From positions 1-36,035 of the forward strand of contig JAHEKS010000009.1 of the NCBI GenBank assembly GCA_024638215.1: DNA of 36,035 nt, in the 5' to 3' direction. The notes beneath the pieces were generated by a model. That model was not told the DNA's origin. It ran no database searches and saw nothing but the letters and a program-made list of their open reading frames with translations. The stretch is from Acidobacteriota bacterium. Its GTDB lineage: Bacteria > Acidobacteriota > Terriglobia > UBA7540. Below, piece after piece: positions 2 to 23,656 of the stretch. Position 1 is the first letter of the stretch, and each line of letters starts with the position of its first letter. The position numbers and the translations under genes are program-made.

Positions 2-2314
<2,313 letters not shown>

Positions 2315-7626: not shown

Positions 7627-8010
7627 ATGAAAAAGGTCGGCGGCTTGGTGGGACTCGTCCTCGCCCTGGGCATCGGCTACTTCATCTTCAAAGCTCAGAT
7701 GACCACCGGGCCCGCGGGCGGCGCGCCGCCCCAGCAGGTGATTGACACGACCGGCGTCGAAAACGACCTCGTTGCCATCGGGCATGCCGAGCAGATGTAC
7801 CTGGCCAGCCACGGCAGCTACGCTTCGCTCGACCAGCTCAAGCAGGATGCGATGACCACTTTTTCCGACGGCACACGCCGCGGCTACCAGTACACCGTGG
7901 ATTTTGAAGACGGCCAGCATTTTCGCGTCACCGCCACGCCCACCGACCCGGCCAAGAAGAACTGGCCGACCGTGAGCATTGATCAAACTATGCAGGTCCA
8001 AAAGCAGTAA
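7627..8010 (+). CDS. Single-helix-anchored pilin-like protein
   Basis: A 127-residue protein with an N-terminal membrane helix (VGGLVGLVLALGIGYFIF, residues 4-21) and a small C-terminal domain. The segment 'GVENDLVAIGHAEQMYLASHGSYASLDQL' is the pattern in type IV pilin and pseudopilin globular domains, where an alpha helix is followed by a beta-sheet. The usual prepilin peptidase site (Gly-Phe before the helix with Glu5) is absent, so it may be an anchored pilin-domain protein and not a classical pilin. The Shine-Dalgarno GAGAGGTGA is good. Its stop codon (8008-8010) immediately precedes the left arm of the inverted repeats around the four-helix-bundle gene. Confidence 0.7.
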   Translation: MKKVGGLVGLVLALGIGYFIFKAQMTTGPAGGAPPQQVIDTTGVENDLVAIGHAEQMYLASHGSYASLDQLKQDAMTTFSDGTRRGYQYTVDFEDGQHFRVTATPTDPAKKNWPTVSIDQTMQVQKQ

Positions 8011-8014
8011 GGAG

Positions 8015-8060
8015 CAGTCAAACTAGTCAAGACCAGTCAAGACCAGTCATGAGCAGTCAA
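8015..8060 (+). repeat. Left arm: five tandem AGTCAA-type words
   Basis: AGTCAA or AGTCAT begins at 8016, 8025, 8035, 8045 and 8055, with GACC filling most of the intervals. It starts 5 nt after the stop of the pilin-like gene and faces the complementary arm at 8695-8720. Confidence 0.85.
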
Positions 8061-8119
8061 GACCAGCGAAAGGCAGCAGAAAGAAGCGAAGGAAAGTCAA
8101 AGCGGAGAGGGATAGTCTG

Positions 8120-8608
8120 GTGGCAGGCGATCCAGGAAAAGCCGTCGCAAGCCGCAGCGGAAAGCCAGAGGCAGTGGCGTTGGACCCGAAACTTAGTCCG
8201 AGAGTGTCATCCAGGAGGGCGTTTGGATACCGTGACCTCCTAGTCTGGAAGAAAGGCATGCTCCTGGCTAGGCACATCTACGAGTTGACACAAAGGTTTC
8301 CTGCCGAAGAAAAATTCGGCTTGGTTTCACAAATGCGCCGTGCCGCGGTGTCTATTCCGTCGAACGTTGCGGAAGGACACGCGCGCCGCACAGCCAGGGA
8401 GTTCGTCCAGTTCTTGTCTCACGCTGAGGGCTCGCTCGCCGAGTTGGATACCCAACTCGGGCTGAGCGTTGAACTGGGCTACTGCGAGAAAGGCATCGCT
8501 CGGGCAGCTTGGGACTTGGTCGTTGAGCTTGAGAAGATGTTGGCGTCACTGCGCAACTCCGTTGAGGCGCGCCAAGAGCATCGTCCCTTGGGAGGGAGCC
8601 GCGAATGA
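8120..8608 (+). CDS. Four-helix-bundle protein, S23 / Avd-like family
   Basis: A 162-residue protein. From residue about 36 it matches the family found in 23S rRNA intervening sequences and related to the Avd accessory protein of diversity-generating retroelements: YRDLLVWKKGMLLA, FPAEEKFGLVSQMRRAAVSIP, SNVAEGHARR, and GSLAELDTQLGLSVELGY. These proteins form basic pentameric barrels thought to bind nucleic acid. The GTG at 8120 is chosen because GGAGAGGGA (8104-8112) precedes it well; GTG at 8204 would give just the conserved core. Codons such as TTG, ACA, CAA and AGG are more frequent than in its neighbours, which suggests transfer. No reverse transcriptase or 23S rRNA lies in the window. 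The family is certain; the function here is unknown. Confidence 0.88.
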   Translation: MAGDPGKAVASRSGKPEAVALDPKLSPRVSSRRAFGYRDLLVWKKGMLLARHIYELTQRFPAEEKFGLVSQMRRAAVSIPSNVAEGHARRTAREFVQFLSHAEGSLAELDTQLGLSVELGYCEKGIARAAWDLVVELEKMLASLRNSVEARQEHRPLGGSRE

Positions 8609-8694
8609 CTCCTATCGGAGCCGCTGTACGTGAATCGTGAAGCGAACTCCGGTATGTGCTGCTTCCTGCTCTTCGGTGCCGCTCTCGGCTGCTT

Positions 8695-8720
8695 TTGACT
8701 GTCCTCGACTGTTTTTGACT
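8695..8720 (-). repeat. Right arm: three tandem TTGACT-type words (inverted copy of the left arm)
   Basis: TTGACT at 8695-8700, TCGACT at 8705-8710 and TTGACT at 8715-8720 are spaced exactly 10 nt apart. They complement the AGTCAA words at 8016-8060. The arm ends about 45 nt before the start of the GHMP kinase gene. Confidence 0.85.
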
Positions 8721-8765
8721 GTATTCTCCTGCTGTTGATATTTCTGCATTCTTATCGAGGTGAGC

Positions 8766-9791
8766 ATGCGCGTTGAGACACGGGCTCCTGCCCGCGTAGA
8801 TTTGGCGGGCGGAACGGTGGATATCTGGCCGCTCTACTTGTTTCATCCCGGAGCGCAGACGGTGAACATTGCGGTGCGCAGCTACGCTTCCTGCACCATC
8901 GAGACGCGCGCCGACCGGCGCATCGTCTTGTGGTCGCGCGACCAGCAAGTGCGCGAAAGCTACGAATCGCTGACCGAATTGGCGCTGAAGAAATCGCGTT
9001 TGCCGCTGCTGCGCGAGCTGGTGCTTTCCTTCGAGCCCCGGCGCGGGATCAGCGTGAAAACCGGCTCGCAGGTGCCGGCCGGCGCCGGCCTGGGCGGATC
9101 CTCGGCGTTGAACATCGCGATTTGCGGCGCTCTGGCGCGCGTCACGGGGAAGCGCTGCACCAAAACGCAACTGCTCGAAATCGCCAAGAACGTTGAGGCG
9201 ATTGTGATCAAGGTCCCCACCGGCTGGCAGGATTATTTCCCCGCGCTTTACGGCGGGGCCAGCGCCGTCCACTTGAACCGTGACGGTGTGAAGCGCGAGA
9301 AGCTGCCGCTTTCTTTCGCCGACGTCGAAAAACGGTTTGTGCTTTGTTACACCGGCATGCCGCGCGATTCCGCCATCAACAATTGGGAAGTGATGAAGGC
9401 GCACATTGACGGCGATCCGAAGGTGCGCAAAAACTTCGACCAGATCACCACCATCGCCGTGCAAATGCGCGAGGCGCTCCTGGCCGGCGACTGGAACGAC
9501 GTGGCGGAACTGCTGGCCCTGGAATGGGAGAACCGCAAGCGGAATTTCAAAGGCATCTCCACCCGGCGCATTGACACGATGATTTCCGAGACCCGCAAGC
9601 GCGGAGCCCGCGCGGCGAAGGTGTGCGGGGCGGGCGGCGGAGGATGCGTGGTCTTCGTGGTCGAGCCGGGAAGCAAGGCCGCGGTCGAGAATACGCTGCT
9701 CCGGCTGGGCGGCGAGATCCTTCATTTTGGCGTGTCACGCACCGGCCTGGAAGTTCGCTCCAACGGTTCGGCGCCGGGGCGGGAAGCCTGA
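8766..9791 (+). CDS. GHMP-family sugar kinase (heptose/galacto/fucokinase-like)
   Basis: A 341-residue cytoplasmic kinase that phosphorylates a small molecule with ATP. Three GHMP motifs are visible: motif 1 ARVDLAGGTVDIWP (residues 9-22), the phosphate-binding motif 2 PAGAGLGGSSA (about 104-114), and motif 3 KVCGAGGGGCVVF (about 284-296). Motif 1 is closest in style to the 'RVDLAGG' of fucokinases and heptose-7-phosphate kinases, so a sugar substrate is likely; mevalonate-type substrates are less so. GAGGTGA at 8757-8763 supports the ATG at 8766 over the GTG at 8760. It heads a tight cluster with the CPBP protease (14-nt gap) and the gene at 10795. Confidence 0.87.
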   Translation: MRVETRAPARVDLAGGTVDIWPLYLFHPGAQTVNIAVRSYASCTIETRADRRIVLWSRDQQVRESYESLTELALKKSRLPLLRELVLSFEPRRGISVKTGSQVPAGAGLGGSSALNIAICGALARVTGKRCTKTQLLEIAKNVEAIVIKVPTGWQDYFPALYGGASAVHLNRDGVKREKLPLSFADVEKRFVLCYTGMPRDSAINNWEVMKAHIDGDPKVRKNFDQITTIAVQMREALLAGDWNDVAELLALEWENRKRNFKGISTRRIDTMISETRKRGARAAKVCGAGGGGCVVFVVEPGSKAAVENTLLRLGGEILHFGVSRTGLEVRSNGSAPGREA

Positions 9792-21101: not shown

Positions 21102-23552
21102 CTACGGCCTGCTGCTTTCTTCCAACCCCCTCAGAATCGCCAGCGCGACTTCCTTGCCCTTTTCCCCGATTTCGCCCGCCGGTCCGACGCACGAGGGGCA
21201 GCCCGATGAGCACGGACAATTTTCGATGAGGCGTCGCGTATTCTCAAGCAGCGTTTCGCTCAGGCGGAAGAGCGGCTCGCTGAAGCCGACGCCGCCGGGG
21301 TACTTGTCGTAGAGATAGATATTCGGCTCGAAGAGGGCAGGGGTTCGGGTTTCGGATTTCGGGGTTCGGGATTCGGGTCCGGATACGGGAAGACGCTCTG
21401 ATTGCTCCTGACTTCTGACTCCTGAGTCCTGACTTCCCTCGACTCTGTTTTCGCCGACTGAGACTCCCAGGTCGCGCGCGTCGCACATGACCAGCAGCGT
21501 GGCGATGGCCTGGAGCGCGTGCGCCAGGCCGTTCACGCCGTCCTGGCGCTCGGTGCGGCCGTAGGGAAGGCGGCCTAGAAATTCCTGCGGCAGGGTCAGC
21601 CAGTAAGCCGTGGTGTGCATTTCCTGCTCGGGCAGCACCAAGTCGCCCGAGCCCACGTTTTCGTGGGTATGGAACTTGATCTTCTTGAAGCCCACCACCT
21701 GCGTGTTGACCTGCACCTCGCCGTGATTCTTTTGTGCCGCGCCAGCCGCGGCGGAATCGAAAGTATCAATAATGGTTATCTTCGTATAGTCAATGGCATC
21801 CGTATAGTAATCGGTGTCGCAGCGGCGGACGTAGGCTTTGCGGTCGTCATAATCGAGTCGCTCGACGTGATATTGCTGGCCGTCCTGCATGTAGATGGCC
21901 TTTTCGTGCACCGTCTCGAGCGCGCTGGTGAAATCCACTTCGCCGACGATGCGCGGTTCTTCGGTGGTCTCGACGATCACGAAATTGTCGGAAGAGACGG
22001 AGCGCAGGCTGATGGCGTCGGCCGGGTAGCTCTCCGAAACCCAGTGCCAGCCGTCGGCGGAGCGGTGAAGGAAGCCGACCTCCTGCAAATGCTCGCAAAG
22101 CTGGAGGAGGTCGAGGGAACCGAAGTGTTCCTCCTCCTTGAGCGGCAGCTCGAACGCGGCGCACTTGAGGTGGTTGAGCAGAATTTGGAGATTGTCGGGA
22201 TTGATCAGCCCGTGTTCGGGCGAGCGCGAGAAGAAGTATTCGGGATTCTGCACTATGAACTGGTCGAGCGGAGCGCTGGAAGCGACAAGCATCGCGGCCG
22301 AGGTTCCCTTGCGGCGTCCGGCGCGGCCGGCACGCTGCCAGGTGGAAGCAATGGTGCCCGGGTAGCCGGCCAGCACGGCGACGTCGAGCGAGCCGATGTC
22401 AATGCCGAGTTCGAGCGCGTTCGTCGCCACCACGCCGCGCAGGCGCCCGTCGCGCAGGTCGCGCTCGATTTCGCGCCGTTCGAGCGGAAGATAGCCGCCG
22501 CGATAGCCGCGCACCGCGTCGGGCCCGATGGGCAGCCGCGCAAAATCCTCTTTCAGATAGGTCACCAGGATTTCCGTCGCCAGGCGCGAGTTGGCAAAGA
22601 CGATGGTTTCCAGGCCGCGTTCCAGGAACGTCCGCGCCACACGCCGCGTTTCGTTCAAATAGGACCGGCGGATGCCGAGCTGGGGATTCACCACGGGTGG
22701 GTTGTAGAAGACGAAGAATTTCTCCGCCGCCGGCGCGCCGTTTTCTTCGACCAGTTCGACATCTTCCTCGATCAGCCGGGCCGCCAGCTCGGCGGGATTG
22801 GCAATCGTCGCCGAGGTGCAGATGAACTGCGGCTTCGCGCCGTAGAACTTTGCGATGCGCTTCAGCCGGCGCAACACGTTTGCCAAGTGGCTGCCGAAAA
22901 CACCGCGGTAGGTGTGCAGCTCGTCAATCACCACGTAGCGCAGGTTCTCAAACAGGCGTTCCCACTTGGTGTGGTGCGGAAGGATGCCGGCATGCAGCAT
23001 ATCGGGATTGGTGATCACCAGGTTCCCGCGCGAGCGGATGGCGCGGCGCGCGTCCTGGGGCGTATCGCCGTCGTAGGTGAAGGTGCGGATTTCGTCGCCG
23101 AGCTTTTCCGTCCAGCGGTTGAGCTCCGTCAACTGGTCCTGCGAGAGCGCCTTGGTGGGGAAGAGGTACATCGCCCGCGCGTCGGGATTTTCGACCAGGG
23201 CCGTGAGGATGGGCAGGTTGTAGCACAGCGTTTTGCCCGAGGCGGTGGGCGTGACGACCACGAAATTCTTGCCCGCGCGCGCCAGCTCCGCCGAGACCCT
23301 CTGGTGCGAATAGAGACTGGCCATGCCGCGCTCTTTCAGGATTTCCGCCAGGCGGGGCGGCAGAAAATCCGGCAGCGGAACGAGCTTGGCTTCGCGGGCA
23401 GGGAAGTGCTTGAGGGCCGTGACGCCGCCGAGCGCCGGAATCCCGCCCCGGCTGAACTTCTGCTGAATTTCTTCCAGCGCGTCCTGCACGGTGGCCAGTT
23501 CGCGGCTGCCGAGCGCCCCCAAGGTCGTGATAGCTTGCGATTGATTTTTCAA
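21102..23552 (-). CDS. mrfA: DEAD/DEAH-box helicase with DUF1998-type zinc domain, MrfA (YprA) family
   Basis: An 816-residue DNA helicase. Motif I is TPTASGKT (Lys107), motif II is VIDELH (Asp210-His213), with SAT, then 'TNALELGIDIG' and motif VI QRAGRAGRR (about 405-413). The C-terminal zinc-binding part has a cysteine cluster, CPCSSGCPSC (about 778-787), that matches the four cysteines of Bacillus MrfA. It starts at TTG 23552 with AGGAG 6 nt upstream and a TACAAT -10 at 23577-23572. It is longer than Bacillus MrfA; part of the excess is a repeat-encoded insertion at about residues 704-738 (21340-21438). mrfB follows. It is divergent from the kinase gene. Confidence 0.92.
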   Translation of the reverse strand: MKNQSQAITTLGALGSRELATVQDALEEIQQKFSRGGIPALGGVTALKHFPAREAKLVPLPDFLPPRLAEILKERGMASLYSHQRVSAELARAGKNFVVVTPTASGKTLCYNLPILTALVENPDARAMYLFPTKALSQDQLTELNRWTEKLGDEIRTFTYDGDTPQDARRAIRSRGNLVITNPDMLHAGILPHHTKWERLFENLRYVVIDELHTYRGVFGSHLANVLRRLKRIAKFYGAKPQFICTSATIANPAELAARLIEEDVELVEENGAPAAEKFFVFYNPPVVNPQLGIRRSYLNETRRVARTFLERGLETIVFANSRLATEILVTYLKEDFARLPIGPDAVRGYRGGYLPLERREIERDLRDGRLRGVVATNALELGIDIGSLDVAVLAGYPGTIASTWQRAGRAGRRKGTSAAMLVASSAPLDQFIVQNPEYFFSRSPEHGLINPDNLQILLNHLKCAAFELPLKEEEHFGSLDLLQLCEHLQEVGFLHRSADGWHWVSESYPADAISLRSVSSDNFVIVETTEEPRIVGEVDFTSALETVHEKAIYMQDGQQYHVERLDYDDRKAYVRRCDTDYYTDAIDYTKITIIDTFDSAAAGAAQKNHGEVQVNTQVVGFKKIKFHTHENVGSGDLVLPEQEMHTTAYWLTLPQEFLGRLPYGRTERQDGVNGLAHALQAIATLLVMCDARDLGVSVGENRVEGSQDSGVRSQEQSERLPVSGPESRTPKSETRTPALFEPNIYLYDKYPGGVGFSEPLFRLSETLLENTRRLIENCPCSSGCPSCVGPAGEIGEKGKEVALAILRGLEESSRP
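21340..21438 (-). repeat. Two-module tandem repeat inserted in frame within mrfA
   Basis: Reading the minus strand, module A (21438-21404) consists of GTCAGGA, GTCAGAA and similar words. After about 12-15 nt comes module B (21388-21340) with CCCGAAT, CCCGAAC, CCGAAAT-type words. It encodes SGVRSQEQSERLPVSGPESR and SETRTP, matching the linker in nrdJ in composition and frame. It lies in the C-terminal zinc domain of the helicase, outside its ATPase motifs. Confidence 0.82.
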
Positions 23553-23577: not shown

Positions 23578-23630
23578 CGACAGCCGAGAATCAGCGTGAT
23601 ACGAGCTGGCGGTGTGATCCTTTCTTCCGG

Positions 23631-23656
23631 CTTCTGGCTCCTGACTTCTGGCTTCT
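23631..23656 (-). repeat. Short word-repeat patch in the mrfA-kinase divergent region
   Basis: CTTCTGGCTCCTGACTTCTG and the following GCTTCT form a tract of related 7-9-mers. On the minus strand these are AGAAGCCAGAAGTCAGGAG-type words, the same family as module A in nrdJ and mrfA. Confidence 0.65.

Follow-up and report, generated by a model that had tools for sequence, protein, structure and literature searches.

Inverted tandem-word arms accompany four-helix-bundle (S23/IVP) genes in Acidobacteriota and other bacteria

Described repeats and proteins closest to the element

Tandem heptamers are reported to outnumber all other intergenic periodic repeats in a broad range of prokaryotes, with 'no clear clue' to their function (PMC6344855), and descriptions of them have remained without a function (PMC6344855, PMC4692102, PMC4679880); in Xanthomonas, the word GGGAATC forms 70-75 convergent inverted pairs per genome (PMC4692102). 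The elements described below resemble the cyanobacterial STRR repeats, the GGGAATC repeats of Xanthomonas and the TAACTGA repeats of Beggiatoaceae in that all are built of 7-nt tandem words in spacers. The 7-nt criterion for intergenic heptamer repeats is met by 92 of 101 armed elements in relatives, which makes uncommon the 10-nt period of the element that lies in the window (the whole 36,035-nt stretch of Acidobacteriota contig JAHEKS010000009.1 that was analysed). No published link between intergenic heptamers and any protein was found in a search restricted to open-licence papers.

The second related system is the intervening sequence (IVS) of 23S rRNA. IVSs replace rRNA hairpin loops (PMC4990558, PMC11270868), and in Coxiella the IVS, which is cut by RNase III, carries 3-4 tandem heptamers GACAGAT before its S23 ORF (PMC4990558). 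With the S23-encoding IVSs of Coxiella and Leptospira the present elements share the protein family, ends that pair into a stem and a sporadic distribution, and the defining IVS property of complementary termini that form a stem is met by the window's element. Unlike IVSs, the elements of this family lie, as far as a motif scan shows, outside rRNA, occur in many copies per genome, have words specific to each locus and are accompanied by hairpins without a gene.

REPIN/RAYT systems pair a protein family with many more non-autonomous hairpins per genome, and protein and repeat are co-specific. The four-helix family likewise has more gene-less hairpins than genes and shows co-specificity of protein and word; it differs in encoding PF05635 only, with no Y1 transposase, in having arms of tandem words rather than single palindromes, and in a word that varies by locus. 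With Avd of the diversity-generating retroelements the window's protein shares its fold (TM-score 0.88 by target length, AF2 model versus 4dwl), but neither a reverse transcriptase nor a template repeat is present within the window's element or next to it. Among solved structures the nearest is XCC0516 of Xanthomonas campestris (PDB 2gsc), at 42-44% identity and with a TM-score of 0.92-0.94 by target length; it is reported to assemble from five four-helix bundles. Structures of S23/IVP proteins have been available since 2006 and, to our knowledge, no function has been assigned to them.

The element at 8015-8738

The window's element spans 8015-8738 and lies between two genes that define its site:

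7627..8010, + strand: upstream neighbour, a 127-aa ORF, found beside the kinase in relatives too and defining the orthologous site
8011..8076, + strand: 5' arm of degenerate 10-nt words (AGTCAAGACC type), directly 3' of the stop codon of the upstream ORF
8120..8608, + strand: four-helix-bundle (S23/23S_rRNA_IVP) gene, longest ORF from a GTG (PF05635, 7.9e-36; TIGR02436, 1.4e-33)
8684..8738, + strand: 3' arm of 10-nt words complementing the 5' arm (TTTTGACTGT type)
8760..9791, + strand: downstream neighbour, a GHMP kinase gene, the other border of the orthologous site

The phased, facing words that the first-pass annotation had pointed out are indeed present. Words of the AGTCAA/AGTCAT type start at 8017, 8025, 8035, 8045 and 8055 (spacing 8, 10, 10 and 10), and the facing words TTGACT, TCGACT and TTGACT at 8695, 8705 and 8715. 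TRF detects the 5' array at 8015-8066 with a period of 10 (score 76) and the 3' array at 8684-8722 with a period of 20, equal to two 10-nt words (score 64), and these are the top-ranking arrays in that part of the window. The arms are also inverted, as had been claimed: positions 8025-8067 and 8678-8720 are 74% complementary, and the hairpin score of the spacer, 15.5, exceeds that of every one of 30 shuffles (mean 9.5, maximum 11.5). At a few sites the word is similar to the last stretch of the adjoining gene (7983-8000 versus 8018-8035, for instance), as it would be if words were derived from their target site; this idea was set aside because the arrays fade into their flanks.

The single gene between the arms is S23-like, in agreement with the same annotation, with 122.9 bits for PF05635 (cut-off 33.8) and 115.4 bits for TIGR02436 (cut-off 24); the true start may lie further in, since the conserved domain covers 8231-8545. 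The bAvd/Avd models align only weakly, NF033474 reaching 24.1 bits and thus not meeting its cut-off of 80. The AF2 model (mean pLDDT 88) has four helices and finds its best structural match in XCC0516 (Foldseek E 2.7e-8), Avd being more remote. PF05635 is the sole gene between the arms; neither a transposase in general nor a Y1 (RAYT) transposase in particular is found in the element. The absence of rRNA and of reverse transcriptase, noted previously, holds for this locus: the site is flanked by the 127-aa ORF, which has no Pfam match, and the GHMP kinase rather than by an rRNA gene, and no reverse transcriptase or TR/VR pair was seen in or beside the element, a statement that covers the element and its two neighbours and not the whole genome.

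The element could in principle act as RNA, its transcript forming a long stem that an enzyme such as RNase III processes and to which the S23 protein binds, selection then falling on the RNA stem as in IVSs. Folding the transcript, which had been suggested as a check, pairs the arms with z = -3.3, none of 20 shuffles being equally stable; the Coxiella IVS offers a precedent in which RNase III cleavage, heptamers and an S23 ORF coincide (PMC4990558), and the fold matches Avd, which is part of an RNA-handling reverse-transcriptase complex. Selection at the RNA level should, however, favour arm mismatches that G-U pairing on the gene-sense RNA can tolerate, and these are not consistently favoured (113:132 in one count, 129:96 in another), so that a wobble asymmetry in support of such selection is lacking. 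The earlier suggestion of an RNA-structure-forming element is accordingly upheld only insofar as the RNA can fold, with nothing further in its favour, and we regard an RNA-level element as unlikely. Because of the inconsistent G-U counts, action at the DNA level is slightly preferred; the evidence is weak, and the choice between DNA and RNA has not been demonstrated.

Arms and site occupancy across the PF05635 family

The window's genome contains 13 PF05635 genes, and reading their flanks directly places nearly all of them between inverted arms of tandem words, each locus with its own word, usually of 7 nt: GTCCGTG/ACGGACCACGGAC at C311, TCAGCNN at C355, AGAAATC at C163 and an 8-nt word at C241. 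The copies have diverged from one another and hence give no sign of a recent burst. Further word classes among homologues include TCAGTTN and GGAGTCAGAA. Arms were scored by aligning the 350-500 nt upstream of each gene to the reverse complement of the 350-500 nt downstream of it, with upstream and downstream regions taken from different loci as the control. After clear arms had been found in nearly all of the 42 loci of a first family set, the enlarged family set gave scores of at least 15 at 101 of 122 loci, most of the other 21 showing short word arms by eye. In the phylum set 27 of 29 loci are armed, as against 1.7% of cross-locus control pairs; on GTDB contigs (Bacteroidota, Clostridia, Cyanobacteria, Planctomycetota, Proteobacteria, CPR and others) 48 of 74 loci score at least 16, as against 0.9% of control pairs; and seven of eight loci on cyanobacterial and Gemmatimonadota plasmids are armed. 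At several loci below the score threshold the 5' word array is still visible by eye. The arms therefore belong to the gene family throughout bacteria and not to the window's locus alone, and they complement their own-locus partner although the words differ between loci.

A period of 7 dominates (79 of 94 elements in one set, besides the enlarged family set already given), the others being 8, 9 and the window's 10. The arms have a polarity, with G exceeding C in the 5' arm of 87/101 and 60/68 elements. Their unit order also appears mirrored (0.886, versus 0.790 at a one-unit shift), a value that we set aside because the alignment itself maximises the unshifted figure. A motif scan gave no convincing rRNA context around the other four-helix loci, the phage records searched contained no match, and no PF05635 match was found in the 14 well-known control genomes searched.

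Three states were seen among orthologous sites, which are empty, carry a gene-less hairpin or carry a hairpin together with the gene. Both neighbours of the window's element were found in 12 relative genomes and the four-helix gene in none of these, which answers the question, raised with the initial observation, of whether close relatives lack the unit here. Eight of the 12 carry a gene-less hairpin that scores above all of its shuffles, one (G001) has the 5' array only, one (G031) has an unrelated spacer, and in two a mere 10-28 nt separate the neighbours. The words at this site differ among genera and drift even inside one genus, g2 (TCAGTTT, GTTGTCC, GTCCTTT); every 3' arm nevertheless complements its own 5' arm, and some of the hairpins (L393, L400) are nested. 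An orthologous locus with the gene and no arms would have refuted the initial reading; what was found is the reverse, namely arms and hairpins without the gene.

Other sites vary in the same manner. At the L035 site, three species of genus g11 carry the gene with arms, a fourth has a word array and a short hairpin without the gene, and another genus has a word-less spacer. Genus g18 offers two spacers adjoining pgk: site A has the gene with arms in one species and gene-less hairpins of the same word in two, and site B has the gene with arms in one species, a gene-less hairpin in another and no words in a third. In genus g2, site C1 is occupied in one species and word-less in the others, and at site C2 species differ in which of two four-helix lineages they carry, and in its word, a further species having an array only. 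The site A element with the gene (L069, 2417-3515, in the pgk-tpiA spacer) also holds an HNH-associated ORF, which encodes a PF18780 homing-endonuclease-associated protein, seemingly frame-shifted from its HNH part. This ORF was seen in one element and, while fitting a mobile element, is not general.

No transposition event or excision product was seen in these comparisons, nor any target-site duplication, the orthologous empty sites being too diverged for base-exact borders. Of the earlier proposal of a free-standing, possibly mobile unit, the unit with arms of its own is thus supported by the family, and mobility is inferred from presence and absence without having been observed. Hairpins in the window and in relatives often begin at a stop codon, as would be expected if they were ordinary intergenic regulatory hairpins (terminators or mRNA stabilisers) into whose spacers an unrelated host gene had come by chance. 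Against this stand the pairing of arms with their own partner and not with the arms of other loci, the erratic occupancy of sites among close relatives, and words whose conservation follows the protein rather than the neighbouring genes; this last coupling, described below, already disfavours the explanation, which we consider very improbable.

Protein-word coupling, gene-less arrays and a proposed mechanism

The coupling was measured on 106 armed family elements, using the 4823 pairs whose members belong to different genera and lack homologous flanks. The more alike two proteins are, the more alike their words tend to be (Spearman 0.274; none of 500 permutations above 0.096), and strong word matches rise from 2% of pairs at low protein similarity to 46% at a relative score of 0.65-0.7 and 75% at 0.7-0.8. 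Among pairs with 66-72% amino acid identity, consensus heptamers agree at 6 or more of 7 positions in 37-40%, against a baseline of 2%; in the same range fourfold-degenerate sites are saturated (0.29-0.30, versus 0.285 in unrelated pairs), and the DNA between arm and gene, with 0% strong matches in these pairs, is unconserved. As far as sequence comparison can show it, protein lineage and word are thus conserved together, and neutral sites and internal spacers are not. Since linkage or recent transfer would also have preserved spacers and synonymous sites, and only the arms are kept, recognition of the word is the likeliest reason; the data suggest, in the absence of any binding measurement, that the four-helix protein recognises the word of its own arms.

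In one case the word led to a prediction across phyla that was then borne out. The closest family protein of a Nostoc plasmid element with AGGAGTCAGAAGTCAG words belongs to an Acidobacteriota group with the same AGGAGTCAGAAGTCAG words (relative score 0.72). The overall cross-phylum correlation of protein and word is not significant (54 of 500 permutations), only the closest bins being enriched, and it is likewise not significant in the GTDB-only and phylum-only sets. The coupling does not extend to the window's own protein: the words of its nearest relatives in the family (59-68% identity) are 7 nt long and do not resemble its own 10-nt word. Two gene-less period-10 arrays with related words (L015/L129 and L125) occur in its genome, and the one at L015 (~1440-1560 on contig C346) is a gene-less hairpin of 10-nt words resembling those of the window's element.

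Sites without a gene are far more numerous than genes; GAGTCAGAAGTCAG, with at most one mismatch, occurs at ~20 genome sites and has a gene at only two. In the 14 family genomes sampled, period-7 arrays are denser where there are more PF05635 copies per Mb (rho 0.82, p = 4e-4), with 7 arrays per 100 kb in the window's genome, none in 326 kb of genome G010, which has no PF05635 gene, and none in 100 kb of E. coli K-12. The density samples are unbiased and small (42-326 kb), the correlation has no phylogenetic correction, and E. coli K-12 is the sole outside replicate. In addition, gene-less arrays of the window's genome match the words of the resident genes no significantly better than foreign words (20 of 200 random sets were as good). 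The window itself contains such arrays at three places, each presumed to be a related footprint:

1635..1715, + strand: gene-less 7-nt arrays AGGAGTC and TCCCGAG, in frame in a ribonucleotide reductase gene
21340..21432, + strand: gene-less 7-nt arrays GGGGTTC and CTCCTGA, in a minus-strand helicase gene
23624..23656, + strand: gene-less single 7-nt array CTTCTGG

The first lies in the large-subunit gene (ORF 14-2314), between the barrel and TSCPD domains, and consists of a G-rich array followed by a C-rich one whose words are not complementary. In the MrfA/HRQ1-like helicase that holds the second, the 80-position MZB domain is spread over 114 residues, as if by an in-frame insertion.

The abundance of gene-less hairpins, exemplified by GAGTCAGAAGTCAG, could also mean that tandem-word hairpins are separate repeats, either slippage-grown palindromes or small mobile repeats, with the four-helix gene a passenger in their loops and the arms not its ends. 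Such a separation would fit the presence at one orthologous site of hairpins with different words, some of them nested, and the replacement of rRNA hairpin loops by IVSs (PMC4990558, PMC11270868). It is difficult to reconcile with words that stay with a protein lineage even where sites are unrelated and genera differ, and with the lack of similar gene-less arms in the PF05635-less genome G010, and we hold it to be doubtful. A selfish or mobile minimal element, composed of inverted word arms and a four-helix protein that recognises the word-hairpin around its gene, is in our judgement the probable explanation, mobility and binding both being inferred; hairpins without a gene would then be either non-autonomous copies or remnants.

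In the mechanism that we propose for this minimal element, the protein, a putative pentamer by homology to XCC0516, would bind the repeated hairpin words, probably as DNA, and the element and its gene-less hairpins would colonise further intergenic sites, frequently next to stop codons and perhaps within the loops of existing hairpins. Movement would have to rely on host replication or recombination, or on an enzyme supplied in trans, because neither a nuclease nor a transposase is recognisable in the usual element. Solo hairpins may result from deletion of the gene, or a factor acting in trans may have mobilised them; single arrays may be what is left once one arm has decayed. The 23S rRNA IVSs that carry S23 ORFs would be elements of this type whose insertion site is an rRNA hairpin, and they do look like a special case of the word-armed elements. 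A preference for stop-codon-adjacent spots and existing hairpins would explain both the variety of words found at one site among species and the position of IVSs in rRNA hairpins.

More tentatively, and with somewhat less than even confidence, the elements may constitute a new class of selfish element, in which the tandem word is read by a pentamer of the four-helix protein, inverted arrays serve as the ends, existing hairpins are the targets, gene-less copies and remnants make up much of the bacterial intergenic heptamers, and S23-bearing rRNA IVSs are members that landed in rRNA hairpins. The parts were known before; the combined system was not found described in the open-licence papers to which the search was confined. 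It joins two old puzzles, the function-less tandem heptamers and the function-less S23/IVP proteins, and a protein-word code, if true, would yield sequence-specific binders, a whole family of them, in which the DNA flanking each gene reveals the target, and would offer a direct bench test for both. It would also explain erratic insertions in the spacers of operons, here at cas6-cas4, ribonucleotide reductase and pgk-tpiA.

Several further repeats came to light. A gene-less word hairpin lies in frame inside hisF (L077, ~2130-2270, genome G018); 9-nt words TAATCTGCG occur at L163 (7565-7660, genome G027) with no four-helix gene nearby; and L061 (3447-3556, genome G003) is an unrelated ~110-nt repeat with more than 30 dispersed copies. 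On two cyanobacterial plasmids, four-helix elements (L380, L385) lie between cas6 and cas4 of CRISPR loci, in a context whose cas1d is annotated as type I-D in Anabaena sp. 90; such four-helix genes were earlier read as possibly CRISPR-linked (PMC3936711).
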